A DNA stretch of 64,000 bases from Gammaproteobacteria bacterium (lineage in GTDB: Bacteria > Pseudomonadota > Gammaproteobacteria > Pseudomonadales > Pseudohongiellaceae): the NCBI GenBank assembly GCA_002730035.1, contig PBYU01000050.1, positions 129,678 to 193,677 of the forward strand. Reading direction: 5' to 3'. The first letter of the stretch is position 1, and the number at the start of each line of letters is the position of its first letter. Shown here piece by piece: positions 1,778-24,537 of this stretch. A program made the position numbers and the translations under genes. The notes below the pieces were generated by a model. It ran no database searches. It was given only the letters and a program-made list of their open reading frames with translations, and was not told the origin of the DNA.

Positions 1778-3297
1778 ACGATAACCTGCGCGAACAACTC
1801 CTATTATTGCCGGCCTATTTCCAGGGGCACCTGGTGCTGACGCTCATCTCCTTGTCCCTCGGAATTGCAATCAGCATTCCTTTAGGTATCTGGGCAGCTC
1901 AATCGCCAAGCGTAAAACGACCTCTGCTGGTTGTCGTGAGTATTATTCAGACTTTTCCGAGTATCGCTATTTTGGCACTGGTAGTTGCCCTGTTAGGTGG
2001 GCAAATCGGTCTGGTGCCGGCAATCACCGCATTGGTGTTGTATTGCATGTTGCCGATCGTGCGTAACACGGTCACTGGCCTCGAAACTGTTTCTGCGGAT
2101 GTAATGGAAGCGGCCCGAGGTATCGGTATGTCATCGGGACAAATTCTCAGGCGTGTGAAAATACCGTTGGCACTACCGGTAATTATTGCGGGTATTCGAA
2201 CAGCCGCCGTCTGGACAGTGGGGCTGGCAACTTTATCTACACTGGTCGGAGCCACCAGCTTTGGAAACTATATCTTCACCGGCTTACAAACTCGCAACCT
2301 GGTCTCGGTAACCGTGGGCAGCCTGGCAGCTGCCATCATGGCGGTGGCGGTGGATGGCATCATAGGCGGGATACAGTGGCTAACGGAAAACCGCAACGTC
2401 AATCCACCCAGTGAGAAATACAAGCGAGTCAAATTCGCGGTAATTGTGGGCATCCTGGCCGGATTCTCGATCTCGGCGTACAGCCTGTTACCTAAACCTG
2501 CCGCCGATTTTATCGTGGGTGGGAAAACCTTTACCGAGCAATACATTATTGCGGGTTTGCTTACCGCCGAACTGGAGGACGTTGGGTTTCGTGTCGATCA
2601 ACGCTTAGGTCTGGGCACGGAGGTTGTGTATGAAGCAACCGCCAACGGCTCGATCGATATCTATCTGGAATACTCGGGCACAATCTGGGCCAACCGCATG
2701 AATGAGGAGGGTAACCCTGGCCGGGAAGCCGTTCGCCTGGCGGCGGCAGATTTCGTTGCAGAAGTCGATGGCATGGTTAGTATCGGAGCGCTCGGTTTTC
2801 AGAATCTTTATGCGCTGGCAATGCGCAAGGATCGCGCGCAGGAACTGGGGATCGCCACAATAGAAGATCTGATCCCTATTGCCGATACGCTGGTCGCTGG
2901 AGGTGATCTGGAATTTTTTGGGCGTCCTGAATGGATTACCCTGAGGGATACCTACAACATCGATTTCGCCCAGAAGCTCACCTTCGATCCTTCGCTGATG
3001 TATACCGCTGTCGATGAGCGCCAGGTAGACCTTATTTCTGGTTATACCAGTGACGGGCGCATTGCCGCTTATGATCTGCAGCTCATTGAAGATAACCGCA
3101 ATGCGATTCTGCCTTACGACGGTATGTTGCTGGCCTCAGCCAAGGCAGCGAGAAATCCGCTCTTCATGGATACGGTTCGCGCCTTAGTCAATCGAGTTTC
3201 CGACGATGCCATGCGTGAAGCCAACAAGCTGGTGGATGTCGATGGCAGAACGATATCCGATGCCGTAGATTATCTGCGCAGCGTCATCAGGCAGTAA
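1774..3297 (+). CDS. ABC importer permease fused to its substrate-binding domain (OpuB/YehW-EgtU type)
   Basis: One polypeptide of 507 residues carries both membrane and solute-binding parts. Residues about 15-205 form a ProW-type permease with the EAA loop ('EAARGIGMSSGQ', about 112-123) that contacts the ATPase. A further hydrophobic segment at about 220-240 tethers a type II periplasmic binding domain (about 245-507). That domain opens with 'VGGKTFTEQYI' and contains 'GLGTEVVYEA' and 'DIYLEYSGT', the signature of OpuAC/ProX-like binders of quaternary ammonium compounds. The fusion means no separate binding-protein gene is needed, and none is present. The ergothioneine importer EgtUBC has the same fused layout, so osmoprotectant and ergothioneine are both possible substrates. 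Confidence 0.88.
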   Translation: MNDNLREQLLLLPAYFQGHLVLTLISLSLGIAISIPLGIWAAQSPSVKRPLLVVVSIIQTFPSIAILALVVALLGGQIGLVPAITALVLYCMLPIVRNTVTGLETVSADVMEAARGIGMSSGQILRRVKIPLALPVIIAGIRTAAVWTVGLATLSTLVGATSFGNYIFTGLQTRNLVSVTVGSLAAAIMAVAVDGIIGGIQWLTENRNVNPPSEKYKRVKFAVIVGILAGFSISAYSLLPKPAADFIVGGKTFTEQYIIAGLLTAELEDVGFRVDQRLGLGTEVVYEATANGSIDIYLEYSGTIWANRMNEEGNPGREAVRLAAADFVAEVDGMVSIGALGFQNLYALAMRKDRAQELGIATIEDLIPIADTLVAGGDLEFFGRPEWITLRDTYNIDFAQKLTFDPSLMYTAVDERQVDLISGYTSDGRIAAYDLQLIEDNRNAILPYDGMLLASAKAARNPLFMDTVRALVNRVSDDAMREANKLVDVDGRTISDAVDYLRSVIRQ

Positions 3298-3303
3298 GCC
3301 AGC

Positions 3304-5562
3304 TCAGGGTTGGATTGAAAACGGGACGCCGGTAGTACTGTAAACAAACGCACCCGTGCTCGGTATTTCGTAGGCAAAAAACACTGTCAGAGAAGCGGAA
3401 TCCACACCGAAGGCACTGGGTACGAATTCACTGAACGCGACCAGTTCTTCGGAGCTGTTAAGCGCCCGCGGCAGGATCGTACCGCCCAATGTGCCGAGCT
3501 CCCCATCCCAGGCCTGGTAACCCCCTTGATCGTCGCGCAAGAATAAGCCCACACCTTCGACCGAGATCACAACGTAGGTCACTCCAACCAGTCCTTGATG
3601 CTCGCTCGGTATTTGCAATGTTGCCCGGACATCGATGGAATCTTGCGAGCTGAATAGTGAAACCGCAGTCTCTGAGTCGCCGGTTCTGGTTGCCCCACCG
3701 TACATTATCGAGCCGGAATCGCCGCCAAGGGAAGTGATACCTAGAATTCGCGATACCCGTAGCGCGGCGATCTGAAAGCGGCTGTGATTCAGTGTGTGCA
3801 CCGCATCTGCTCCAAGTTCAGTATTTGCACGAGACACTCCGCAAGCCAGTCCGTTGCATTGATTACTTAAGGGATTGGAAAAAAGGGGTAATTCGGTGGA
3901 GCCAGGATAGTCATTGGTGTTCGCCATAATAGTAGCGAAGGAGCCGTCTACGCCATGGCCCAAGGACCAGGGAAACGTCCCCTCTGCCCCGGCCTCCCGA
4001 TGAGAATGAACCAGACCAAAGTTATGCCCCAATTCATGGGCCAGTGTTAAATCGTCGCAGCCGTCACCTCCTCCATCAGGAAAGCCGGGCATATACAGCG
4101 TAACGTACAGTTCGGAATCAACAATCGACGGATGAAATAATTCACCCCGATAGCCAATGCCGCCTGTGGAACCTAGACCGCATAAATTGCCGGAATCAAA
4201 TCTACCGTCGATAAGTACCACGATGTCAGCACCGATTTCAGAACGAATCGTGGACACTGACTGGAACGCCGGATGCGTGGCATCGGACAGTGCATCTTGC
4301 GTGACATTCAAATTGCTATTGACATTGTAGTCGACAAATCCATAGTACACCGGACGAAACTGAACCAGAGCTCCACTGTCGGCATAGTAGGCATTGGTGA
4401 CCTCTACCAGCTGATTAATCTCCGTCTCGGGTGAGGGGTGGCCGATGTCATCCAGAAATTTCTGCGTGTAGAGCAACATCAAGTCGACTTCAGATTTGAA
4501 ATCAGGGGCAACCACTGATGTGGCACTATTCGGATCGGTGTTGGCAATTGCCTCGTTGAAATCCGTAATGCCATCGCCGTCGGTGTCCACCAGGGTTTCC
4601 TTGTTGACGAAGACGAAGGCATTCTGTTGCATGTATTCCCCGAACAGGTCGCCGACAAACACGCCACTTGCGACTTGTGGGTGGGAGGCATCGGTAAGCT
4701 GCACGGTGTAATTGAGCGTCGTGCTGGCCCCCGGTGCCAGGTTGCTTATAGTGCATTGCAGCGATGGTTGGGCAGCGGTGGAGCCCACTTCACAGCCGCT
4801 GCTGCTGATGAAATCTGTTTCATCTAGAATAAACAGGATATTGACGTCTTCATTGATGAGGGTGGATGAAAGGTTATTGGTGATGCGAATCGATACCGTG
4901 AGATTATCTCCGACCGTGGCATTGATCTGAGTACCGGAATTACCACCGCTTGATGTCAGCGTCTGCACTACGCTGACATCGTTGCCACTGAGCGCAACAA
5001 AATCGACCAGCGCATTGCTACTTGGCGAGCCCGACGAGACATAACCCCCATCGTCACTGGGCAAATACTGTGCGCCCCTGGCGAAGGAATAGACCCAACC
5101 GATGTAGTCATAACTGTTCTCTAGTGGGATTGCCTGAAGCGAATACTTTCCGGTAGGGCTGTAGATGGTCGCCAGAACGACCTGGGAATTGAAGGTAAGA
5201 GAAATGCCGAACGACTGATCTTGATCGCTGAATCCTCCACGCCAGCCGCTGTCTCCATTCAGATAATCACTGCGCTGCTCGATGACATAATTGAAAGCCT
5301 GCTGGTCTGCAATTTCCAATGTCAGGGTATCGTTTGCCAGCAGACCCTCGAACAGGGAACCGGAGAGATAGACTGCTCGCTGTGTGTCAACCTGCTCTGG
5401 CAGAGAAATTCCCGCCAAGTCGTCCAGATATCTTCCAGGATCGACTAGTTCCCACAGTGCTTCTGTGTCGGCCAGGGAAACGTTGCAGAAAATACTACCA
5501 ACCAGAAACAACAAATGGCTTGTTAATCCGCTAGCGATGAAACACTGCTTACGACGACCCAT
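3304..5562 (-). CDS. Secreted zinc metalloprotease, reprolysin-like, with DUF11-like and TSP3-type segments
   Basis: A 752-residue exported protein. An N-terminal hydrophobic signal ends near 'NVSLA'. A conserved beta-sandwich of the DUF11 type ('LTVSIRITNN', about 220-310) is followed by a calcium-binding thrombospondin type 3-like segment 'DTDGDGITDFNEA' (about 325). The catalytic domain carries HELGHNFGLVH at about residue 505, the HExxHxxGxxH zinc site of metzincins (M12/M43-like), preceded by 'GDGCDDLTLA'. The remaining C-terminal part (about 590-752) is beta-rich and unassigned. A role in digestion of extracellular protein is inferred. It converges on the transporter operon with only a six-base gap and ends in TGA. 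Confidence 0.85.
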   Translation of the reverse strand: MGRRKQCFIASGLTSHLLFLVGSIFCNVSLADTEALWELVDPGRYLDDLAGISLPEQVDTQRAVYLSGSLFEGLLANDTLTLEIADQQAFNYVIEQRSDYLNGDSGWRGGFSDQDQSFGISLTFNSQVVLATIYSPTGKYSLQAIPLENSYDYIGWVYSFARGAQYLPSDDGGYVSSGSPSSNALVDFVALSGNDVSVVQTLTSSGGNSGTQINATVGDNLTVSIRITNNLSSTLINEDVNILFILDETDFISSSGCEVGSTAAQPSLQCTISNLAPGASTTLNYTVQLTDASHPQVASGVFVGDLFGEYMQQNAFVFVNKETLVDTDGDGITDFNEAIANTDPNSATSVVAPDFKSEVDLMLLYTQKFLDDIGHPSPETEINQLVEVTNAYYADSGALVQFRPVYYGFVDYNVNSNLNVTQDALSDATHPAFQSVSTIRSEIGADIVVLIDGRFDSGNLCGLGSTGGIGYRGELFHPSIVDSELYVTLYMPGFPDGGGDGCDDLTLAHELGHNFGLVHSHREAGAEGTFPWSLGHGVDGSFATIMANTNDYPGSTELPLFSNPLSNQCNGLACGVSRANTELGADAVHTLNHSRFQIAALRVSRILGITSLGGDSGSIMYGGATRTGDSETAVSLFSSQDSIDVRATLQIPSEHQGLVGVTYVVISVEGVGLFLRDDQGGYQAWDGELGTLGGTILPRALNSSEELVAFSEFVPSAFGVDSASLTVFFAYEIPSTGAFVYSTTGVPFSIQP

Positions 5563-5754: not shown

Positions 5755-6990
5755 CTAATTGTAAATCGCGGCACGTGCGGCGGCGTGAACCTGAAGAGAA
5801 TAGAAAATATCGCTGTTCTGAATCATACCGATAAACACGACGTTTTCCACCGGGTCGATCCAGAACCAGGAACCGGCGATACCCCACCACCAGTGCGTAC
5901 CTACGGGGGCACCCTGATGGGCCGCCGAATCGTTAACAACCGCGAAATCCAGGCCAAACACGTTGCCGGGATAGAGCTGGCCGATATTAGGAACCGCATC
6001 CGGCAGCTGGTTGCTGCGCATGAGCTGCACGGCCTCTTCAGAGAGGAGTCGATTGCCGTTAAGTTCGCCACCGTTCAGGTGCATCTGGGCGAACTTCATG
6101 TAATCTGCGGCAGTGGAAGTCAATCCGCCACCGCCGGACAGGAACTTGGGTGGGTTCAGAAATGAGCCGTTGTCTGTGCGAGTCAACGTGCCGTTCTGAC
6201 CGGGGTTGTATTGACGAGACAGGCGGCTGGCGTTGTCAGACTTCACATAGAAACCGGTATCGACCATGCCCAGCGGATCGAAGAGTCGTTCCTGCAAAAA
6301 GACGTCGAAGGTCTTACCGGACAGTTTCTCTATCAGGTAACCCTGCACATCCACCGAGATACTATAAACCCATTGCGTGCCGGGTTGATAATCCAGAGGA
6401 ATATCACCCAGAGCCGGAATCGATTCCGCCAGCGTGTAATTCGGCGTGTTCATGATGCCGGCCTGAAAATAGGCATTGGCAATGGGTCCCTGGGACAGTG
6501 GCGGAGTGTAGAGCAGGCCGCCGGTATGACTCATCAGTTCGCGGACTGTCATCGGATGGTCGGCAGGTTCAGTTACCCAGCTGCCGTCGTCATTCTGAGA
6601 AACGAACACTTCCATGCCGGCCAGCTCAGGTAGGTGTTTTTCCACCGCATCATCCAGTGTGAACTTGCCTTCGTCGTACAGCATCATCAGCGCGGTGCCG
6701 GTAATCGGCTTGGTCATCGAGAAGATTCGGAAGATCGTATCGTCACGCATGGGGACCTGGTCTTCCACATTCTGGTAACCTAGTGACTGGGTCATTTGAA
6801 TTTCACCATCCTGAGCGATCATGACTACCGCGCCAGATAACTTGTTAGCGTCGATGCGTGCCTGAATGTCTGCAGCCACAGCATCCAGCCGGGATTGCTC
6901 GATATCCGCCAGAGCAAAATTCGCGATGAGTGTCAGGCTTAGTCCAAGCAGCAGCTTGACGAGCCTGTTTTCGTTGATTCTTTCAATCAT
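5755..6990 (-). CDS. Class C beta-lactamase-like serine hydrolase (esterase/peptidase family S12)
   Basis: I chose the ATG at 6990 because 'MIERINENRLVKLLLG' starts a clear signal peptide and AGGGG lies just upstream. A longer in-frame start at 7059 has no signal-like character. The protein has the catalytic SxxK as 'FSMTKPITG', a Tyr motif region around 'WVYSISVDVQGYLIEKLSG', the 'MSHTGGL' segment typical of EstB/S12 hydrolases, and a C-terminal 'GIAGSWFWIDP' strand. Such proteins are usually periplasmic esterases or D-amino-peptide hydrolases rather than true beta-lactamases. The substrate is unknown. No regulator is adjacent. Confidence 0.87.
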   Translation of the reverse strand: MIERINENRLVKLLLGLSLTLIANFALADIEQSRLDAVAADIQARIDANKLSGAVVMIAQDGEIQMTQSLGYQNVEDQVPMRDDTIFRIFSMTKPITGTALMMLYDEGKFTLDDAVEKHLPELAGMEVFVSQNDDGSWVTEPADHPMTVRELMSHTGGLLYTPPLSQGPIANAYFQAGIMNTPNYTLAESIPALGDIPLDYQPGTQWVYSISVDVQGYLIEKLSGKTFDVFLQERLFDPLGMVDTGFYVKSDNASRLSRQYNPGQNGTLTRTDNGSFLNPPKFLSGGGGLTSTAADYMKFAQMHLNGGELNGNRLLSEEAVQLMRSNQLPDAVPNIGQLYPGNVFGLDFAVVNDSAAHQGAPVGTHWWWGIAGSWFWIDPVENVVFIGMIQNSDIFYSLQVHAAARAAIYN

Positions 6991-23585: not shown

Positions 23586-23760
23586 ACCCTATCTACTTCA
23601 CTTGCATGTCTTATCGCTCGCAGGCAGGCTAACTCTTCCGCGCTGTCTGTTAACCGAGTTGGAACGGATGGGGCAAATATTGCATTGATCCCGAAACCTT
23701 TATGCGTCAAGGTACAACGAATTCCCCCCATGCCTTACAAGATTGTGAAAGGAGAAAGCC

Positions 23761-24537
23761 GTGCAAGAAGAGAGTCAGGTAAATTCCGATGAGCTCAGGG
23801 CGCAGGTCAAAGAAAAGTACAGGGCTGTGGCAGTCGCACCAGATGCCGAATACCATTTTCATACCGGCAGACCCTTAGCAGCACGACTGGGTTACGATTC
23901 GGCGATAACCGACAGTCTTTCTGATGCGGCAGTGGAATCGTTCGCCGGTGTGGGTAATCCCTTCTCACTTAGAGCGTTGCAACAGGGTGAAAAAATTGTC
24001 GATGCCGGATCTGGTTCCGGGTTCGATTGTTTTGTTGCCGCTACACTCGTCGGAGATCAGGGTCAGGTTGTCGGCGTGGACATGACAGAGGAAATGTTGA
24101 CCAAGTCACGCGCCACGGCAGTAGCGTTAGGTGCTGACAATATCGACATACGGGAAGGCTTACTGGAAGAGTTGCCGCTGCAAGATGCTTGGGCAGACGT
24201 CGTCATCAGCAACGGGGTTATCAACCTCTGCAGTGACAAGCAACGAGCATTCGCTGAGATTTTCAGGGTACTAAAACCGGGCGGGCATCTTCAGTTCGCC
24301 GATATCGCCAACAGTGAACCCGTGCCACAATCGGCGATCAACAACATCGATCTCTGGACCAGCTGAATTGCCGGCGGCCTGCCGTGTGCAGGCTGGGAAA
24401 AGATGCTTCTCGACTCCGGGTTTGAGGATGTGCAGATTGGACCGCCAGTGGATACCTTCGGTGGTGCCTCGGGAGAGACCAATGCCAGGCAATTCGGCGT
24501 ATATGGCTATGCGTTCCTGGCAAGAAAGCCTGGTTGA
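23761..24537 (+). CDS. ArsM-like SAM-dependent methyltransferase, candidate selenoprotein (TGA codon 202)
   Basis: GTG start with AAGGAG seven bases upstream. The SAM fold shows motif I 'IVDAGSGSGFDCFVAA', motif II 'VVGVDMTEEML', 'ADVVISNGVINL' and 'LKPGGHLQFADI', the pattern of arsenite methyltransferase relatives. After 'INNIDLWTS' the frame meets TGA (24364-24366), then continues for 56 sense codons with conserved family sequence: 'IAGGLPCAGWEKMLLDSGFE', 'DTFGGASGETNARQFGVYGY' and 'AFLARKP', ending in TGA at 24535. In ArsM proteins this position is the Cys of 'GC(V/I)AGAL', which binds As(III). A hairpin fitting the bacterial SECIS pattern follows the TGA. Selenocysteine insertion is therefore plausible; the alternative is a Cys-to-stop nonsense mutation. 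Other nonsense-interrupted genes in this window keep that alternative alive. Confidence 0.65.
24364..24395 (+). promoter_or_regulatory. Candidate bacterial SECIS element after the in-frame TGA
   Basis: TGA at 24364-24366 is followed after eight bases by CGGCCTGC (24375-24382), loop CGTGT (24383-24387) and GCAGGCTG (24388-24395). This is an eight-pair stem with one G-U pair. The distance from TGA to the loop is 16 bases and the second loop base is G, both within the published bacterial SECIS model. The hairpin lies within coding sequence, as bacterial SECIS elements do. Confidence 0.5.

Follow-up and report, generated by a model that had tools for sequence, protein, structure and literature searches.

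A predicted selenocysteine-containing methyltransferase of the ArsM fold lacks two of the three arsenic-binding cysteines of ArsM

Arsenite methyltransferases of the ArsM family (NF008823/PRK11873) are represented by CmArsM (PDB 4fr0 and 6cx6), and the solved ArsM chains comprise 377-387 residues. PMC5552862 describes Cys72, Cys174 and Cys224 of CmArsM as an integral part of the arsenite-binding site and as conserved in its ArsM set, for which at least three of Cys44, Cys72, Cys174 and Cys224 served as inclusion criterion. ArsM-type selenoproteins are already a known kind. Eight sequences of an arsenite methyltransferase containing selenocysteine (Sec) are listed in an ocean survey (PMC2398784), and the protein appears as a PRK11873/NF008823 table row in PMC9312934 and, with the motif UxxG, in PMC13188914, which credits it to Fomenko et al. 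2007 and the fused ArsM-type selenoprotein families to Haft and Tolstoy 2025. Here, we describe a gene of this kind with a new active-site make-up. It is located in a stretch of 64,000 nucleotides of the gammaproteobacterial contig PBYU01000050.1 (positions 129,678 to 193,677 of the forward strand), referred to as the window, whose numbering is used throughout. The gene encodes a predicted S-adenosylmethionine (SAM)-dependent methyltransferase and is interrupted by a single in-frame TGA codon (Table 1).

The window protein is like ArsM in its predicted fold and in the placement of residue 202 at the Cys224 column. It differs from ArsM in having Sec for Cys224, Val64 for Cys72 and Gly152 for Cys174, in its length of 258 residues, and in an NF008823 score of 216.7 bits, under the cut-off of 263. 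With the published UxxG selenoproteins it shares the Sec motif (here UIAG), but the window clade is stand-alone and lacks two of the arsenic-binding Cys; this comparison was made by description, and the clades may be identical. The highest NCBIfam score was obtained with NF041537 (ArsM_AhpD_UU), whose members L178 and L179 likewise combine Gly152 with Sec202. The match reaches 219 bits over residues 7-226, compared with a cut-off of 510 and an additional AhpD domain. Scores for NF041536 (ArsM_DUF2284_UU; 202 bits, cut-off 575 and a DUF2284 domain) and NF047649 (MTase_UXPK_star; 195 bits, cut-off 460 and a second Sec) are also too low, and the window gene has only one internal TGA. In contrast to these three families, the window protein carries no fused AhpD, DUF2284 or UXPK part and belongs to a separate clade. 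Because none of the listed NCBIfam models reaches its cut-off, the gene is likely annotated as ending at the TGA, with the Sec missed. In a non-exhaustive search of the open-access literature, no paper on the absence of arsenic-binding Cys from these selenoproteins was found.

Table 1. Features of the methyltransferase locus in the window.
Feature	Position	Strand	Remarks
Likely ribosome-binding site, AAGGAG	23749-23754	+	6 nt ahead of the GTG start; sequence reading
Gene of predicted Sec-containing ArsM-like SAM methyltransferase	23761-24537	+	258 residues, Sec at 202
Codon 152, Gly	24214-24216	+	second arsenic-binding Cys of ArsM at this place (CmArsM Cys174)
Codon 157, Cys	24229-24231	+	Cys in 90 of the 91 closest loci
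TGA codon 202, taken as Sec	24364-24366	+	CmArsM Cys224 column
Codons 203-258, downstream of the TGA	24367-24534	+	contain the final strands, E222-226 and E248-255, in the predicted methyltransferase fold
Bacterial SECIS hairpin	24375-24395	+	stem 24375-24382 with 24388-24395 (8 pairs), loop CGTGT 24383-24387
Codon 209, Cys	24385-24387	+	Cys in 82 of 91 loci; TGT within the SECIS loop

The in-frame TGA, its hairpin and the selenocysteine machinery

The frame begins with GTG, has the TGA at codon 202 as its sole interruption, continues for 56 further codons and is closed by TGA 24535-24537. A preliminary description of the window had pointed out this family-like continuation, which is borne out by the frame and by the homologues, whose protein sequence downstream of the TGA shows strong conservation. 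An AlphaFold2 model of the 258-residue protein reached a mean predicted local distance difference test (pLDDT) value of 88.6. Its top fold matches were ArsM entries, which places it in the class I SAM methyltransferase fold and, within it, with ArsM. Termination at codon 202 would take away the last strands of this predicted fold.

The TGA codon is conserved among close relatives. In a search of 97 genomes, a close orthologue was found in seven including the source genome, the six others being 63-73% identical, and all seven have one TGA at the same codon. A survey of the genus detected the gene in 11 of 84 genomes. TGA occupies codon 202 in all 11 same-genus loci and in 80 of 80 public relatives (62-95% identity); the latter are the best 80 of 273 relatives from a contig scan, and Cys forms may be among the other 193. 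The two sets overlap and the same-genus set includes the window locus, so that the 91 loci are not a count of independent genes. Going by their record titles, the 80 public loci come from Actinobacteria and from Gamma-, Alpha-, Beta- and 'Delta'-proteobacteria. Cys was found at codon 202 in ten more distant relatives sharing Gly152, which had been chosen for having no stop at this codon.

For bacterial selenocysteine insertion sequence (SECIS) elements, PMC13188914 gives a loop of 3-9 nt, a stem of 4-16 bp, a spacing of 16-37 nt, a G within the first two loop positions and a minimum free energy (MFE) of at most -7.5. The hairpin behind the TGA, to which the preliminary description had ascribed eight pairs, the loop CGTGT, a 16-base distance from TGA to loop and a G as second loop base, is as described and lies within all of these limits (loop 5 nt beginning with CG, stem 8 bp, spacing 16 nt, -14.7 kcal/mol). 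Codon and hairpin statistics were calculated for 80 genes, namely the window gene and L050-L128, with L049 excluded as a near-copy of the window. The hairpin loop is in register in the MFE fold of 71 of these genes, whereas synonymous shuffles lead one to expect 17.9. Silent positions within the hairpin are also protected: among codons 204-211, the five four-fold codons that are conserved show a mean entropy of 0.82 bits versus 1.63 bits in the other 51 conserved four-fold codons (Mann-Whitney p 5e-6, a flattering value since the sequences are related). For the seven inner pairs, an alignment of 39 rows shows pairing in 93.8% of cells; in 12 rows, one pair is U-A instead of G-C. The third base of codon 207 and the second base of codon 210 are paired in 79 of the 80 genes (61 G/C, 18 T/A), a coupling which joins a silent change to an amino acid change but goes back to no more than 3 to 4 changes on the tree.

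Seven of the nine genes without an in-register hairpin have Arg at codon 209 (L098, L099, L101, L105, L122, L126 and L127, all actinobacterial records). A reading of their letters suggests that CGTG is kept near the loop and that the stem is shifted in register. L108, likewise with Arg209, is not among the hairpin misses.

The machinery for Sec, proposed earlier as a check, is present in the source genome with all four components: one tRNA-Sec above the gathering score (65.7 bits; reported by ARAGORN as tRNA-SeC with anticodon tca), SelB (423.8 bits, cut-off 242.25), SelA (559.4 bits, cut-off 267.9) and SelD (284.6 bits, cut-off 125). Tested in 61 genomes with the TGA gene, i.e. 11 same-genus genomes and those of 50 of the 80 public loci, SelB exceeded its cut-off in 58. 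SelA was detected in 53 of 61 genomes of the genus searched compared with 5 of 36 same-order genomes outside the genus. In genome G057, the methyltransferase gene and SelB are present without a SelA match.

These data indicate that TGA 24364-24366 is very likely decoded as selenocysteine. The two outcomes that the preliminary description had named as refuting this, missing sel genes and close homologues devoid of the TGA and of hairpin conservation, are contradicted by the results. SelB carrying Sec-tRNA-Sec would bind the hairpin, and the ribosome would place Sec at the UGA rather than stopping. The product would be a class I SAM methyltransferase with the ArsM fold and a length of 258 residues. 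From the frame, the conservation of the TGA, the SECIS element, the Sec machinery, the Cys counterparts and the predicted fold, all of them computational observations, we infer Sec insertion, SAM-dependent methyl transfer and a role for Sec202. The best overall explanation, with a probability of roughly 0.9, is a selenoprotein of the ArsM-type SAM methyltransferase fold in which Sec202 takes part in active-site chemistry; taken separately, it is quite probable that the protein is a SAM methyltransferase whose active site contains Sec.

Active site and phylogeny in comparison with ArsM

Alignment to CmArsM equates residue 202 with Cys224, residue 152 with Cys174 and residue 64 with Cys72, and the window protein has Sec, Gly and Val at these positions. 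The TGA does stand at an arsenic-binding Cys of ArsM, as had been proposed. No Cys occurs before residue 90, hence none at position 44, and the protein holds at most one of the four Cys used for inclusion in the ArsM set, even with Sec counted. Judged by sequence, it is not a member of ArsM by the two features tested, though it is ArsM-like in build.

The combination of Gly152, Val or Ile64 and Sec or Cys202 was found in all 53 sampled sequences of a wider group, consisting of 32 from the window clade, 11 other Sec forms and 10 Cys forms, whereas each of the three arsenic-binding positions is Cys in all 19 sampled ArsM sequences. A tree calculated without the three active-site columns separates the 19 ArsM from the 53 with a Shimodaira-Hasegawa-like approximate likelihood ratio test (SH-aLRT) value of 96 and supports the window clade (32 rows) with 100; it is a quick tree, unrooted and without bootstrap. 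On this tree, residue 152 changes once, Sec/Cys at residue 202 twice and residue 64 three times. Dropped beforehand were L171, L187 and L188, which had long branches in an earlier tree, and L191, which is identical to L078. All three sites are Cys in L171, while L187 and L188 combine Gly152 with Sec.

The sister forms with Cys, namely methyltransferase-MerC fusions and haloarchaeal methyltransferases, are like the window protein in Val64, Gly152 and the residue-202 position. They differ in having Cys for Sec, a MerC domain or an OsmC neighbour, and no Cys157 in the ten sampled, and they represent natural controls. Only the third ArsM Cys position is kept, as Sec in the window protein and as Cys in the sister forms; the other two ligands are absent in both. 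Either one selenolate suffices for metalloid methylation, or some so-called arsenite methyltransferases act otherwise. Two ArsM-type sequences from same-order genomes (L027 and L041) have Cys at the 157 position in addition to the three ArsM Cys.

Gene contexts and possible substrates

As a best guess, the protein would catalyse SAM-dependent methyl transfer to a soft substrate other than arsenite, with Sec202 as ligand or nucleophile. Its selenolate would be the one chalcogen ligand or nucleophile in common with the ArsM active site, and would most likely bind a soft electrophilic substrate near the SAM methyl group or redox-cycle during methyl transfer.

A sel gene is located within a flank of up to 6 kb in nine of the 80 public loci, 46 of which were covered by the tRNA scan. 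In L060, the order is selA, selB, tRNA-Sec, methyltransferase, selD; a glycosyltransferase-like open reading frame (ORF) of the opposite strand precedes the tRNA. The flanks of L062, L112, L119 and L123 hold selB and tRNA-Sec, those of L073 and L089 tRNA-Sec, and those of L074 and L097 a SelD-like gene; Pfam searches of neighbouring ORFs found SelA, SelB and AIRS domains. In some genomes the gene is surrounded by selA, selB, tRNA-Sec and selD, which makes selenium a conceivable substrate, although such a position may only mirror the use of Sec, whatever the function.

Other contexts concern MerC, sigma-70, OsmC and AhpD. A MerC gene lies directly downstream of the methyltransferase gene in L050, and Cys-type methyltransferase-MerC fusions were detected in L118, G201, G252 and G496. 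Pfam assigned MerC with 39 bits in L175 (G252) and with 25.8 bits, just below the cut-off of 27.6, in L118. Full-length matches to the L118 fusion are limited to G201, G252 and G496, i.e. 3 of 398 genomes. A sigma-70 family gene stands beside the MerC fusion in all four cases and likewise in Chelatococcus. In L118, the Cys-type fusion (4219-5454) and a Sec-type methyltransferase gene (6001-6762) are close together on the same strand, and a sigma-70 family gene (3242-3943) lies upstream. Haloarchaeal Cys forms on plasmids (L208, L210, L211 and L212) immediately follow an OsmC family gene in each of the four records read, one of which also has a gene of the carboxymuconolactone decarboxylase family (AhpD-like). 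In the phylum of G525, AhpD-bearing Sec forms over the NF041537 cut-off occur in 2 of 297 genomes (L178 and L179). Taken together, such neighbours and fusions suggest a link to stress of the redox, electrophile or soft-metal type, and they name no substrate.

In keeping with the sel, MerC, sigma-70, OsmC and AhpD contexts, the enzyme might methylate selenium, or other soft chalcogen or metal species, or handle electrophile or peroxide damage in a stress response. This remains a tentative assignment, since no one context is common to the whole group: no neighbour is shared by all, and no Pfam family appears in more than four of the 68 ORFs on either side (68 upstream and 68 downstream, from a simple ORF caller and with spurious ORFs included). 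It is conceivable, at somewhat less than even odds, that the clade constitutes an obligately Sec-dependent family with a single-selenolate active site and a non-arsenite soft substrate, possibly selenium. If true, 'arsenite methyltransferase' would be a misnomer for the selenoproteins so called within the wider Gly152 group, the fused forms among them.

A true arsenite methyltransferase with Sec in place of the third arsenic-binding Cys, and with Cys157 and Cys209 as substitute ligands, would agree with the ArsM fold, the position of the TGA, the frequency of both Cys in the closest loci (Table 1) and the Sec-containing ArsM named in the three publications cited above. It would also suit the gene of an ArsR-family regulator with rhodanese domain that adjoins the methyltransferase gene in 8 of the 80 loci; domain assignments cover four of these loci. 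We consider this unlikely. Arsenite is doubtful as a substrate because Cys is missing from two of the three positions that bind arsenic in ArsM, throughout the sampled wider group and unlike all sampled ArsM, and the NF008823 score is below its cut-off. Cys157 and Cys209 mark the window clade and are missing from the sampled sister groups. Moreover, since codon 209 sits in the SECIS loop, conservation of its Cys may reflect a constraint on the RNA, and the residue is Arg in 8 of the 91 loci. Of the arsenic or thiol/metalloid chemistry suggested in the preliminary description, the arsenic part has become doubtful, arsenite being an unlikely main substrate, and the thiol/metalloid part is still possible.

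The ArsR-rhodanese gene is situated directly upstream and on the same strand in L099, L101, L108, L122 and L127. Only 6 to 23 bases separate the end of its frame from the first aligned codon of the methyltransferase, and the two genes are perhaps co-transcribed.

Termination at codon 202 and surroundings of the gene

Several results lend no support to decoding of the TGA as Sec. The folding energy of the hairpin is not above chance (z 0.27 for 66 nt; z -1.00 for a 37-nt fold, with 27 of 200 shuffles equally good). Compared with synonymous shuffles, the energy is low in only 25 of the 80 Sec genes, and it does not separate the groups, with a mean z of -0.90 for the Sec genes, -0.94 for 9 Cys relatives and -0.49 for 35 ArsM. 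The RNAalifold consensus on the 39-row alignment preferred a different fold and missed the hairpin. Covariation at pair 21-29 seems strong by simple counting (12 of 39 rows; 18 of 80 genes) but is weak, as the tree requires just 3 to 4 changes for it, and a test of independent pairs was unable to reach significance. SelB was not found in the genomes of L050, L068 and L091, the completeness of which is not given. Being ordinary in comparison with shuffles, folding energy was discarded as evidence for a SECIS element, and the case for it therefore rests on position and conservation.

It is very improbable that the TGA is a real stop, with a 201-residue protein being sufficient and the conserved remainder being non-functional or reached by ordinary readthrough. 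The best Pfam match, Methyltransf_31, does cover residues 75-202 and ends at the codon in question, but the conserved codons behind it supply the final strands of the fold as predicted, Cys relatives read through without a stop, and SelB accompanies the gene in nearly all genomes tested. A nonsense mutation or a sequencing or assembly error in a decaying gene can be dismissed, for although TGC and TGA are one base change apart and a related copy has further stops, the same TGA is common to all 80 public relatives from several phyla with the frame conserved behind it, and a dead codon would neither stay TGA nor keep the silent sites around it. The related copy, the same-genus locus L139 (G105), has two extra in-frame stops and is perhaps decaying; SelB is present in its genome.

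The earlier concern that other genes in the window carry nonsense codons fails for TGA. A scan restricted to frames interrupted by TGA retained 12 past a length filter, and continuous family sequence was recognised by eye in the methyltransferase alone. Near selA, selB, tRNA-Sec or selD of the source genome, no other TGA-interrupted gene was recognised by eye, and the FdhA match of this genome has no internal stop; a second selenoprotein was not found in what was a very partial look. Genome G050 has a second selA in three pieces (G050:C4:8176-9548) and a nearly full selA elsewhere.

Within the window, Rfam gave no match at gathering scores and a tRNA scan found none. A promoter and terminator search returned one of each, compared with 0.9 and 1.2 in shuffles, which is not above chance. 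The methyltransferase gene stands alone, flanked by genes for a DUF1330 and a GNAT protein that are both on the opposite strand. A further methyltransferase ORF at 30771-31346 matches only positions 54-95 of the 95 positions of Methyltransf_11 and is perhaps a fragment.
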